Below are positions 3,682 to 62,022 of a DNA stretch of 64,000 nt, piece by piece. The notes under the pieces were generated by a model. That model saw nothing but the letters and a program-made list of their open reading frames with translations, was not told the origin of the DNA and made no database searches. Each line of letters begins with the position of its first letter. Positions within the stretch are counted from its first letter, which is position 1. This DNA comes from Aquisphaera giovannonii (lineage in GTDB: Bacteria > Planctomycetota > Planctomycetia > Isosphaerales > Isosphaeraceae), in the NCBI RefSeq assembly GCF_008087625.1, contig NZ_CP042997.1, positions 5,208,001 through 5,272,000 of the forward strand, written 5' to 3'. Position numbers and translations under genes: made by a program.

Positions 3682-3836
3682 GCGCGATCTTCGGGGACCT
3701 TCCCGATCCGTCCCATGGGACGGCGACCACGATCGTCAGGTCGTGGCCCGGACGGGCGTAGCCTCCAGCCTCGCACGTCCGTGCGGTCCGGGGCCGGGCG
3801 GCGTGGCCTTCCGCGTCCGGACCCGCCGCATGCCCG

Positions 3837-3897
3837 TCCGGCTCACGCCGGAGGCTGGGGGCTTCGCCCGTTTGAACCACCGGCTCACGCCGGTGGT
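3837..3897. repeat. Paired REP-like hairpins between convergent genes
   Basis: Two short palindromes share the same core, CCGGCTCACGCCGG. The first spans 3837-3852. The second, at 3876-3897, is a perfect 9-base-pair stem with a TCAC loop. They lie between the convergent DUF72 and DUF3072 genes and could act as a bidirectional terminator, though there is no T tract. The shared TCAC loop suggests REP-like units rather than two unrelated terminators. Confidence 0.55.
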
Positions 3898-3952
3898 CAC
3901 GTGGCTGTCCATGTTCGCCCGGAGAAGGGCCAAGGCGCGGCTTTGGATGGCC

Positions 3953-4201
3953 TCAGGCCTTCCGCGACTTGGCCTTCTTCTTCGGGGCGTCGTCGTCCAG
4001 GCCCGCCTTCTGCCGGAGCTCGTCGATCTTCATCGACGCCTCGGCCTTGGTCATCTCGTCGGGGACCTCCTCACCGGCCTTGCGGGCGAGCGTGTGGACG
4101 TACGACTCCTGGGCCCCGGTCATCGGCTCCTCGCCCGTCGTCCAGTCGGACGGATCCTTGATCGCGTCGTTCTCGGCCTGGGCGTTATTCCGGTCGCTCA
4201 T
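3953..4201 (-). CDS. DUF3072 domain protein
   Basis: An 82-residue protein. The conserved core is WTTGEEPMTGAQESYVHTLARKAGEE, followed by MTKAEASMKIDELRQKAGL, which is the DUF3072 signature. The C-terminus is a basic lysine-rich tail (KKKAKSRKA), the kind of tail found on small nucleic-acid-associated proteins. The start was placed at MSDRNNAQ. The frame extends further upstream, but that part has no conserved features. It is convergent with the DUF72 gene. The function is unknown. Confidence 0.8.
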   Translation of the reverse strand: MSDRNNAQAENDAIKDPSDWTTGEEPMTGAQESYVHTLARKAGEEVPDEMTKAEASMKIDELRQKAGLDDDAPKKKAKSRKA

Positions 4202-4741
4202 CGGTGCGCCTCGCTGTCCTGATAGCCCACGCCACCCCCGCCTCCACGAGGCCGTCGCGCGTGGCGAATGTGGACGTAGGTACAGCAATACGCGTGCCGG
4301 GGCCGCGCGATTCCGCGCCGAGGTCGGGCGGGTGGCGCCGGATCGAGCCGCGACCGTTCGCCTCAGCCCGGAGGGCGTCGTCGGGTGGCGTCGCCGCGGG
4401 GGATGGCGTGCGTTCCCTGGAACGCGCGCTGCTGCCGGTCGAGCAGGTGCCGACGCTCCAGGGCGTGGGCCTGGCTGGCGGGGACGTTGCTGACGCAGGC
4501 CGGGGAGGAGACGGGGGCCGGGCGGAGCGGGGCGCGGTGCATGGGGGCGAGTCCCGGATGAAGATTGGGCGAGTCATCCCGATCGGCGAGAAACAAACCT
4601 TCCCTGCTGAGGCTCCCGGGGCCACAATACTTGCGGGGATTACCCATCTTGACGGGCGTCGGTGTTGGTTCGCCGGTTGCCAGGCATCGGCGTTCGGCCT
4701 GCCCGCGGCTTTCTCGGGAATGGATCGAGGCGAGACAGAGC
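4202..4741. other. Intergenic region without a supported gene
   Basis: About 540 bases between the divergent DUF3072 and HAD genes. Long frames exist here on both strands, as everywhere in this high-GC DNA, but none gives a recognisable or compositionally convincing protein. The promoters of both genes probably lie here. I see no convincing -35/-10 pair and no repeat family member. Confidence 0.5.
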
Positions 4742-5464
4742 ATGCCCATGAGCAATCCACCGAATTGGGACCTCATCTCGGGGATCGTCTTCGACGCGGT
4801 CGGGACTTTAATCAAACCGGTCCCGTCGGTGGCGGACGTCTACACGGACGCGGCGCGGCGGCAGGGGGTGGAGCTGCATCGGGACGAGGTGAAGGCCCGG
4901 TTCCAGGTCCACTTCGGCAGCGACGAGGTGCGGGGCGACCGGGGGATCCACTCGACGGACGAGGCGACGGAGGTCCACCGCTGGCGACGGATCGTGCACA
5001 AGGTCCTGCCCGAGGTGCCGGACCCCGGCCGGGTCTTCGACGACCTCTGGGATCATTTCCGCCATCCCGGCTCGTGGCGGTGCTTCCCGGACGTCGCCCC
5101 GGCCCTGCGCCTGGTGCACGAGGCCGGGATCACGGTCTGCATCGGGTCGAACTTCGACGCGAGGCTCCGCGAGGTGGTCCTCGGCCATCCGGACCTGGGC
5201 TGGGCCCTCGATGCGCTCGTGATCTCGTCGGAGGTCGGCTACCGGAAGCCGCATCCGAAGTTCTTCGAGGCGGTCTGCCGGCGCCTGGGGCTGGCCCCGG
5301 AGCAGGTGCTCTGCGTGGGCGACGACGCCGAGAACGACGTCCGCGGGGCGATGCGGGCCGGGCTCTCCGCGGTCCTCCTGGCCCGCGGCGGCGACGGGCC
5401 GCAGGACCTGCCCCACATCCCCAACCTGACCGACCTGATGGAGTCCCGCCTGGCCGAAGCCTGA
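4742..5464 (+). CDS. HAD-superfamily hydrolase
   Basis: A 240-residue phosphatase-like protein of the haloacid dehalogenase superfamily. Motif I is IVFDAVGTLI with the nucleophilic Asp in the DxxGT pattern. Motif II is GITVCIGSNFD, motif III includes the lysine of GYRKPHPKFFEAV, and motif IV is CVGDDAENDVRGA. The helical cap lies between motifs I and II, as in the REG-2-like/YjjG-type subgroup. The substrate cannot be told from sequence. Two in-frame ATG codons (4742 and 4748) are possible starts. There is no signal peptide. The gene stands alone, with about 270 bases to lpxD. Confidence 0.88.
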   Translation: MPMSNPPNWDLISGIVFDAVGTLIKPVPSVADVYTDAARRQGVELHRDEVKARFQVHFGSDEVRGDRGIHSTDEATEVHRWRRIVHKVLPEVPDPGRVFDDLWDHFRHPGSWRCFPDVAPALRLVHEAGITVCIGSNFDARLREVVLGHPDLGWALDALVISSEVGYRKPHPKFFEAVCRRLGLAPEQVLCVGDDAENDVRGAMRAGLSAVLLARGGDGPQDLPHIPNLTDLMESRLAEA

Positions 5465-26764: not shown

Positions 26765-26816
26765 AGGACGACCGACGCCGTGGGGCTGGCCTCGCGGCCC
26801 ATCCCATCACGGCCAC

Positions 26817-27160
26817 GGGTGGCTGTGGCGGAAGCGAAGCGACGCCACGGGACCGCCGCGGACGGCGCGAGAGGCGCGGGCTCGATCGCGGGCCGAGCCG
26901 ATCCCGCGGCATCGCCTCCGGCTCTGCCGCAGCCACCCGGAGTGAGGGCCGCCGATCCTCCTCGGGTGGCTGTGGCGGAATCGCAGCGACGCCACGGGAC
27001 CGCCGCGGACGGCGCGAGAGGCGCGGGCTCGATCGCGGGCCGAGCCGATCCCGCGGCATCGCCTCCGGCTCTGCCGCAGCCACCCGGATGGGCCCTCCTG
27101 CCCTTGAAGTCGCCTGCGCGGGCCATGGGTGGCTGCGGTGGAGGCGCGGCGACGCCACGG
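26817..27160. repeat. Tandem GGGTGGCTG...CAGCCACCC elements
   Basis: Two nearly identical elements of about 124 bases lie head to tail (26817-26940 and 26965-27087), separated by about 24 bases. Each begins GGGTGGCTGTGGCGGAA, followed by GCGACGCCACGGGACC, and ends GGCATCGCCTCCGGCTCTGC followed by CGCAGCCACCCGG. They are imperfect palindromes. A third, left-arm-only copy starts at 27127. The interior of the two full copies is identical, implying a recent tandem duplication. They fill the gap 26765-27257. Confidence 0.8.
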
Positions 27161-46553: not shown

Positions 46554-46888
46554 AAATGCGGTCTAACCACAGAGGCACAGAGGGCACAGAGAAGCGGAAA
46601 CGAGAAGAACGGGAAGCCCTGCGGAGTGCCCCGTTTCAACAAGCCCGCTCGACACAACAAAACATCCTCTAATATTAGCAATCCCGTTTACGATCCCTTT
46701 CCTCTTCTCTCATCCCTCATCCTCTCCTCTCATCCCTCTCCTCTCATCCCTCTCCTCTCATCCCTCTCTTCTCATCCCTCTCCTCTCATCCTTCTCCTCT
46801 CATCCCTCTCCTCTCATCCCTCATCCCTCTCCTCTCTTCCCCCTTCTTCTCTGTGTCCTCTGTGCCTCTGTGGTTAGTCCGTATTTTC
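46552..46888. mobile_element. CCACAGAGGCACAGAG inverted-repeat unit with internal minisatellite
   Basis: Near-perfect inverted repeats of about 43 bases bound this unit: GAAAATGCGGTCTAACCACA followed by GAGGCACAGAGGGCACAGAG on the left (46552-46594), and the complement on the right (46846-46888). The right arm includes the last codons and stop of the FAH-hydrolase gene. Between the arms, 46704-46835 is a C/T-only array of about nine imperfect copies of CTCTCATCCCTCTC. The same terminal motif bounds the block at 7862-9012. No gene is present inside. Confidence 0.65.
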
Positions 46889-51410: not shown

Positions 51411-51777
51411 GTTCGGCTCCACGACGCTGGAACTGGACCGTCCCCTTGGATGGTCGAACGGCATCCCCCGCCTTCGACAGGGAAATCGGACTTTCTTCCT
51501 CACCGCGGTCGGGCAGGTCGGAACGGTGCTCGGAACCTCTCCCCACGCCGTCGGGCCCGGGGACAGGCACCGACGGACCTCGAAACGGAGTACCCGCACG
51601 ACGGGCCCCGTCCGAAGCGAGTCTACCTGCATCTCCCAAGTTCCCGGAGAGTTGAGTGATGTCCTCATTTTGCTCCCCGCGGATTAGAGTGATGTCCCCA
51701 TCCGGTTCGTGGAGTGATGGCCCCGTCTGGCTCCATCCGGGCCCCCCTGTCACCTACGCCGCGGAGGCGAGACTCGC
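51411..51777. other. Intergenic region with degenerate short repeats
   Basis: About 370 bases between divergent genes. Around 51652-51728 three degenerate copies of GAGTGATGTCCCCAT occur at roughly 35-base spacing (GAGTGATGTCCTCAT, GAGTGATGTCCCCAT, GAGTGATGGCCCCGT). They may be remnants of a direct-repeat array like those at 56541 and 61722. No gene is supported here. Confidence 0.45.
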
Positions 51778-56347: not shown

Positions 56348-56540
56348 CGAGCCATGATCGCAGAGGGCCGTTCCTGGGGAAAGCTGGTCGCCGACCGATC
56401 GCGGGAAGCCGAAACGGAGCCGATGCGCGGGGCCCGCGGGGTCAGGCCTTGCTGTGCACCGCGAAAACTCGCGGATCTTCAAAGGTCCACGGGGGCTGAC
56501 CGAGTTCCGGGGGACGACGGGGCCCCGGACGCCGCTCCCG

Positions 56541-56700
56541 CCTCGGGGAAATCTGGGTGGCCCCGTTTACCCCGCCTCGGGGAAATCTGGGTGGCCCCGT
56601 TTACCCCGCCCTCGGGGAAATCTGGGTGGCCCCGTTTACCCCGGGTGGCCCCGTTTACCCCCCGGGTGGCCCCGTTTACCCCGCCCCGTTCACCCGCCCT
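56541..56700. repeat. Direct-repeat array, GGGGAAATCTGGGTGGCCCCGTTTACCCC
   Basis: Three consecutive copies of a unit of about 36 bases (CTCGGGGAAATCTGGGTGGC followed by CCCGTTTACCCCGC) are followed by three truncated copies of GGGTGGCCCCGTTTACCCC. Copies are nearly identical and directly abutting, with no spacers. The layout GGGGAAA...CCG-TTACCCC also occurs in the array at 61722-62022. It takes up the second half of the 56348-56742 gap. Confidence 0.8.
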
Positions 56701-61306: not shown

Positions 61307-61657
61307 ATGGAAGCCGCATTGCAGCGACGGGTCTGGCGGCGGGCGGATGGGCGTTGTGAATACTGCCACCTGCCGCAAGCCGGGTCGCAGGCCGCATTCG
61401 AGATCGATCATATCGTCGCCCGCCACCACCACGGCCGCACGGTGCCGGGCAACCTGGCCCTCTCCTGTGCCGTTTGCAACGGGTACAAGGGGCCGAACCT
61501 GACCGGCCGCGATCCGCGCAGCGGCAAGATCACGCCGCTGTTCCACCCGCGGAGGCACAAGTGGAGCTATCACTTCCGCTACGAGGGCGGCACGCGGATC
61601 GGCCGCACGGTCATCGGCCGGACGACGGTTGGCGTGCTCAGGATCAATCACCCGTAG
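61307..61657 (+). CDS. HNH endonuclease
   Basis: A 116-residue HNH-family nuclease. Zinc Cys pairs are in GRCEYCH and LSCAVCNGYKG. The catalytic core is AAFEIDHIVARHHHGRTVPG with the DH dyad, followed by NLALSCAVCN and the Asn/His region KWSYHFRYEGG. It is the size of stand-alone HNH proteins that accompany small partner genes. DNA cleavage is the family's activity; the target is unknown. It is in an operon with the gene at 61002. A direct-repeat array begins about 65 bases downstream. Confidence 0.92.
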   Translation: MEAALQRRVWRRADGRCEYCHLPQAGSQAAFEIDHIVARHHHGRTVPGNLALSCAVCNGYKGPNLTGRDPRSGKITPLFHPRRHKWSYHFRYEGGTRIGRTVIGRTTVGVLRINHP

Positions 61658-61721: not shown

Positions 61722-62022
61722 CGCTCTCCCAGTCCCCGGGGAAAATTGAACTGACACCGATTACCCCCGCTCTCCCAGTCCCCGGGGAAAATTGAACTGA
61801 CACCGATTACCCCCCGCCGATTACCCCCGCTCTCCCAGTCCCCGGGGAAAATTGAACTGACACCGATTACCCCCCGCTGACACCGATTACCCCCCGCGGG
61901 GAAAATTGAACTGACACCGATTACCCCCCGATTACCCCCTGCTGACACCGATTACCCCCTGACACCCATTACCCCCGCCCCTGACACCGATTACCCCCGC
62001 CCTGACACCGATTACCCCACGA
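61722..62022. repeat. Direct-repeat array, GGGGAAAATTGAACTGACACCGATTACCCCC
   Basis: Three copies of a roughly 47-base unit (CTCTCCCAGTCCCCGGGGAA followed by AATTGAACTGACACCGATTA and CCCCC) decay into about seven truncated copies, each keeping the end CTGACACCGATTACCCC. Truncations begin at different points of the unit. No unique spacers are present, so it is not a CRISPR array. It shares the GGGGAAA...TTACCCC layout with the array at 56541-56700. It lies between the HNH module and the low-GC gene. Confidence 0.8.

Follow-up and report, generated by a model that had tools for sequence, protein, structure and literature searches.

Polar tandem arrays in Aquisphaera giovannonii as probable terminal repeats of two classes of RAYT-type elements

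HUH chemistry is used in IS200/IS605 transposition as well as in the one-ended transposition of the IS91/Helitron type, where one end is fixed and the other is variable and may reach into neighbouring DNA. It is known that Y1 HUH enzymes leave a 3′-OH and that TnpAREP cuts near REPs; how RAYTs spread and multiply the repeats is stated to be unresolved (PMC8266576). Two groups of RAYTs are closest to the sequences described here. In the parts of the papers used, the 2.1-type class appears as the one earlier called TIRYT, with the end motif GGGGWSAS (Di Nocera et al. 2013, PMC3733652; Quentin et al. 2018, PMC6006769). A TIRtron is a RAYT-like gene with short, outward-pointing inverted repeats at its flanks, many of them GGGGWSAS; according to the same parts, these repeats form moderately abundant families, as dimers or clusters (PMC3733652). 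A C-terminal HTH domain (DnaA_C-like) is among the features of subclass 2.1. The TnpA-Y1 subclass 2.3 (NHYH and YVDLNP motifs, ∼325 aa) is listed with REP ‘no’ in the table seen (Quentin et al. 2018, PMC6006769). Our class names follow this nomenclature by motif and length and are not a rerun of the published classification.

Arrays A and B and the RAYT genes with matching cores

The window, i.e. the whole 64-kb stretch of DNA that was analysed, carries two direct-repeat arrays on the plus strand, ∼5 kb apart. Both had been reported in a preliminary description; TRF confirmed that they are real and lie where they had been placed, with almost no matches in shuffled sequences. Array A (61722–62018; TRF and sequence) is made of putative tandem end repeats of a 2.1-type RAYT, with core CTGACACCGAT and tail TACCCC. 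Its 11 copies have a common 3′ end; four are of full length (GGGGAAAATTGAACTGACACCGATTACCCC; 61738–61767, 61784–61813, 61844–61873 and 61898–61927) and seven are truncated from the 5′ side. The first unit has a 16-nt 5′ extension, CGCTCTCCCAGTCCCC (61722–61737, plus strand, read directly from the sequence), which is found 5′ of three of the four full units, the first and two later copies. At up to two mismatches TGACACCGATTACCCC occurs nine times in the window, with 0.02 occurrences expected from shuffled windows. Array B (56537–56699) probably consists of tandem end repeats of a 2.3-type RAYT, with core CTGGGTGGCCCC and tail GTTTACCCC; complete 29-mers start at 56545, 56579 and 56614 and truncated copies come after them, GGGTGGCCCCGTTTACCC being found five times in the window versus none expected from shuffles. 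Thus the truncation described earlier is present in both arrays, while the figure of about three full units is right for array B and should be four for array A.

A decayed relative of the arrays had been suspected at 51652–51728 (plus strand). The match is weak: we found three diverged AGTGATG[TG]CC units (0.1 expected from shuffles), with a ATGTCCCC-like centre matching the 2.1-type core, and the suggestion is plausible although there are just three copies. Since the units of the arrays abut directly and spacers are absent, a CRISPR reading was ruled out. Among the other features of the window, at 61307–61657, is a gene for an HNH endonuclease that ends 65 bp before array A; in front of it lies a small gene without assignment to any known family, and the congener G002 has a similar pair. 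An array of ATCCCTCTCCTCTC units at 46693–46837 had no detectable link to a RAYT. At 26816–27088 there is a 147-bp tandem duplication with the palindromic repeat GGGTGGCTGTGGCGGAAGCGAAGCGACGCCACGGG, which also adjoins several RAYT genes (flanks of L245 and L089).

The preliminary description had advised looking for a recombinase gene close by; there is none near A or B. As no RAYT gene is present in the 64-kb window, A and B are orphan arrays, and RAYT genes with matching cores are located elsewhere in the chromosome. The core of array A, CTGACACCGAT, is the motif adjoining a gene for a 2.1-type RAYT/Y1 HUH transposase at about C1:8352836–8353528 on the minus strand. In a genome search with up to two mismatches, TGACACCGATTACCCC was found once upstream of this gene, at a distance of a few tens of bases (C1:8353575), in array A, in a second array (C1:6076102–6076343, tail GATTTCCCC) and at two isolated places with weak matches. 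No downstream copy of the core was seen beside this RAYT in this genome at the same threshold; a related RAYT, L216, has the core on both sides. The protein has intact HUH and Tyr motifs (NHFH and YIEANP) and its sole match in PDB, a weak one (E = 0.0012), is E. coli TnpAREP (4er8). One base separates CTGACACC from the TIR motif GGGGWSAS (reverse complement STSWCCCC); the 2.1-type cores in our data read TG[AT]CCCC, CGTCCCC and TGACACC, with TG[AT]CCCC or CGTCCCC in other 2.1-type RAYTs. By sequence, array A would fit TIRtron-type ends apart from that one motif base and the absent downstream copy. Directly beside the second CTGACACCGAT array there is a small array (C1:6076360–6076480, L065) of a third core family, CTAGCTGCGTCCCCGTTTCGG, whose core is also found upstream of a RAYT at C1:6648932.

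The core of array B, TGGGTGGCCCC, occurs 114 times in the genome, versus three times for the reversed control. Among the matches listed most fall into arrays flanking two genes for long RAYTs, C1:1042739–1043887 and about C1:5040440–5041715. Each gene has one array on either side, the left on the minus strand and the right on the plus strand, so that the cores point outward from the gene. Smaller groups are located at C1:247k and C1:452k. The protein encoded at C1:1043k matched the NF047646 model (REP-associated tyrosine transposase) with E = 2e-11, below the curated cut-off of the model. Its named relatives, 299–382 aa long, carry YVDLNP in 24 cases out of 24, with an HUH motif that is mostly NHYH and in some cases NHLH or NHVH.

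The link between core and RAYT class was also seen in other genomes. We considered the relatives of the long RAYTs from named genomes (the best 80 of at least 588 confirmed loci), and RAYT loci were also taken from 32 genomes of the family to which the window belongs. In these best 80 loci GGNTG[GT]C pointed outward in 57 of 70 upstream and 43 of 72 downstream flanks and inward in three and eight, respectively. Flanks of 2.1-type RAYTs had TG[AT]C[AC]CC or CGTCCCC outward in 17 of 26 upstream and 13 of 25 downstream cases (inward, 4 and 2); the remaining RAYTs showed a preference for neither motif. Most 2.3-like relatives, from Planctomycetes, Verrucomicrobia and Gammaproteobacteria, are flanked by the array B core in the form TGG[GA]TG[TG]C. 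Outward motifs of at least 12 nt common to both flanks of a gene were found at 40 of 141 loci (1.3 with shuffled partners), while at 17 of 141 the flanks shared a motif that had the direct orientation, palindromic repeats accounting for some of these cases. That the core identifies the RAYT class, and that the arrays represent RAYT end repeats, is well supported by these sequence comparisons. The tabulation of subclass 2.3 without REP is contradicted by our 2.3-like set, in which most flanks examined carry the outward core. This core gives a large class of RAYTs without known sites a testable recognition sequence. The recombination or binding-site family suggested in the preliminary description is borne out in that matching cores flank RAYT genes, whose products are predicted to bind them.

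Polarity of the arrays and ends of the mobile units

Read along the C-rich strand, a unit consists of an A-rich arm, the class core and a single base, followed by three positions that are mostly A/T (2.61 of 3, with a background A+T of 0.385 per base) and then by a few local bases. This layout, with an A-rich arm, a class-specific core and N-TTT, recurs in many arrays. The copies keep the 3′ end while their 5′ cut points vary. Counting end seeds in 29 arrays, we found 146 copies with the 3′ end only versus 10 with the 5′ end only; 27 arrays were of the 3′ type and none of the opposite type. As these seeds had been set by hand from full units, we made a seed-free test, in which the extension of all copies into the native sequence left of the first copy was compared with that into the native sequence right of the last copy. 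Here 22 of 24 core arrays were 3′-anchored (P = 3.6e-5), while other repeats from the same flanks gave 13 of 28. Besides the seed count, three polarity statistics were tried and this one, with other repeats as the comparison, was significant; the boundary-diversity and the first pair-extension statistics did not discriminate, one boundary statistic giving 10 versus 7. The arrays used in the polarity tests were partly hand-selected. With these figures we regard the polarity of the arrays as well supported.

In 11 of 13 arrays the copies become shorter with increasing distance from the gene (combined P = 2e-7). The longest copies adjoin the gene and some of them contain RAYT coding DNA. Copies with founder-side DNA comprise those with part of the RAYT coding sequence (C1:8354500–8354720), those with gene-start DNA (L245) and the 91-bp copies of Thalassomonas L127. 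Arrays of the same kind occur in Marinomonas, Ca. Venteria and an Oceanospirillales MAG. Array boundaries jitter, and the constant end holds to within a few bases. Homology at the junctions was 0–1 nt in 76 of 112 cases, i.e. near chance, and the C|T preference of E. coli TnpAREP was not seen at array junctions. Two possible routes of copying were rejected accordingly, namely microhomology-driven re-priming as a requirement, with junction homology near chance, and the C|T-to-C|T excision known for TnpAREP of E. coli, with C|T not enriched.

The ends of the elements were also defined by comparison of close copies. Three 2.1-type RAYT elements of G027, 97.8–98.6% identical, lose homology directly after TATGTCCCC or within about 5 bases of it; for two 2.3-type elements of the same genome (90.6%) and for the two of A. 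giovannonii (about 82%) homology stops no more than a few bases from the cores. The bases beyond the core are local, which is why tails differ between arrays. The presence of the G027 copies at unrelated loci indicates that RAYT elements are able to move as a unit. Neither empty sites nor array-length differences were found in congeners, where the flanks are ∼70% identical or not syntenic.

Some arrays have additional features. An IS with end CAATAGTGTTCGGCAC and a transposase gene inside abuts ATGTCCCC or GGGTGGCCCC cores both in this genome (L067:3400–3450 and 3775–5097, i.e. C1:247400–249095) and in G027 (L240). RAYT end repeats thus seem to be a target of this IS, whose end now forms part of the tail of the repeated unit at C1:247k. 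Next to a 2.3-type RAYT, in the upstream flank of L256 (G027:C5, about 114.7 kb), >30 copies of the ∼10-nt TGTCATCCCG come after a run of CCCCTCAT repeats, itself directly after the ATGTCCTTG end of the element.

Growth of the arrays and alternative explanations

In our view A and B are probably tandemly repeated terminal sites from RAYT-type elements (TIRtrons) of two classes, which would have been amplified in one-ended duplications that start near a nick made by the RAYT. The arrays on the two sides of a gene grow outward as mirror images of each other, and this calls for a process that is defined by the sequence of one strand; given that HUH enzymes leave a 3′-OH on one strand and that TnpAREP cuts near REPs, a nick 3′ of the core with duplication of upstream DNA fits best. 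We infer that, on the C-rich strand, the core is bound by the RAYT, which would nick about 6–13 nt 3′ of the core and would act in trans on cores at other chromosomal sites, those of A and B included. DNA ending at the 3′-OH of the nick would be duplicated, starting at a variable point upstream, with each copy set immediately behind the original; the copies are probably made by synthesis or strand transfer from the nick. Repeated rounds would yield copies with a common 3′ end and a variable 5′ end, shorter away from the founder. The specific expansion mechanism suggested in the preliminary description thus has a counterpart in the polar expansion process that the arrays indicate, and arrays of the same layout, whose absence would have spoken against its reading, are present elsewhere in this genome as well as in related genomes and further phyla.

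The more general claim, that RAYT HUH transposases drive one-ended, 3′-anchored tandem duplication, with upstream DNA of variable length copied in place again and again from a nick just beyond the binding core, and that the whole 2.3 subclass has conserved end sites that were missed, we put forward tentatively, its chances being slightly short of even. If it is true, Y1 enzymes would make arrays grow in a way not so far described for them. Polar arrays are likely to be records of repeated events at a single site, indicating the strand, the approximate cut position and the direction of copying.

The cores could be RAYT ends with the RAYT idle after the first insertion, the arrays having grown by ordinary slippage during replication or by unequal crossing-over at repeats that tend to form hairpins. 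Slippage is a general route of tandem-repeat expansion, block duplications of several units are present in the arrays, A and B are far from any RAYT, and the units have a weak hairpin potential (arms pair weakly; folding gave −1.69 for own arms versus −1.40 ± 0.09 for swapped arms, own arms being slightly better). Still, either nascent strand could slip, and both polarities would then be expected, whereas nearly all arrays have a single polarity, mirrored across the gene, though both strands are copied at each locus. The reach of copies into non-repeated founder flank and the near-chance junction homology also speak against slippage, which we think unlikely, at a chance well below even.

It is very improbable that the arrays are protein-binding or regulatory repeats with a host function, linked to RAYTs as a by-product of insertion beside repeats. 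Host roles have been assigned to REP-type repeats before, and the IS located directly at such cores demonstrates that other elements are attracted; however, mirror-oriented cores are found on both sides of RAYT genes in three phyla, and near-identical RAYT elements take their cores along to new loci.

The preliminary description saw in the arrays a common frame with a variable core. We found the opposite: the cores are conserved and specific to a RAYT class, one per class, while the outer GGGG/CCCC are local. The literal GGGGAAA-N-TTACCCC occurs seven times in the 10.5-Mb genome, every time within A or B, and was not found in two congeneric genomes; the frame itself is thus local. That A and B form one family, with GGGGAAA...TTACCCC as the functional site and an interior free to vary, is hardly credible: the two arrays share the outer bases and lie close together, but the frame is present in no other array, the same cores occur elsewhere with other outer bases (C1:6076100, C1:1041500 and C1:1044000) and the core type tracks the RAYT class.

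Comparison with described systems

An open-access literature search, which is not a proof of absence, gave no description of the cores or of the polar arrays in the texts retrieved. TIRYTs/TIRtrons of subclass 2.1 are alike in having a RAYT-like gene with flanking inverted repeats; the parts of the two papers used (PMC3733652, PMC6006769) mention neither polar, 5′-truncated tandem arrays nor copies with RAYT coding DNA. Members of subclass 2.3 resemble our set in having long RAYTs (about 300–380 aa), NH[YLV]H and YVDLNP, and several genes per genome in some hosts. They are tabulated without REP in the part of the source seen, while most of the RAYTs studied here have outward TGG[GA]TG[TG]C, some have arrays, and they are found also in Planctomycetes and Verrucomicrobia.

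Like the GTAG REPs and BIMEs with their REPtrons (subclasses 2.2, 2.4 and 2.5; TnpAREP, 4er8), the present sequences are short multiplied repeats flanking a Y1 HUH gene. Unlike classical GTAG REPs, the units have no GT[AG]G foot at a stem–loop of at least 7 bp, their hairpins are weak, and polar tandem arrays with 5′ truncation are a feature of the present arrays. In comparison with elements of the IS91/Helitron type, the copies here are tens of bases long, tandem and local, inverted cores are present at both ends, and the enzyme is Y1, not Y2.
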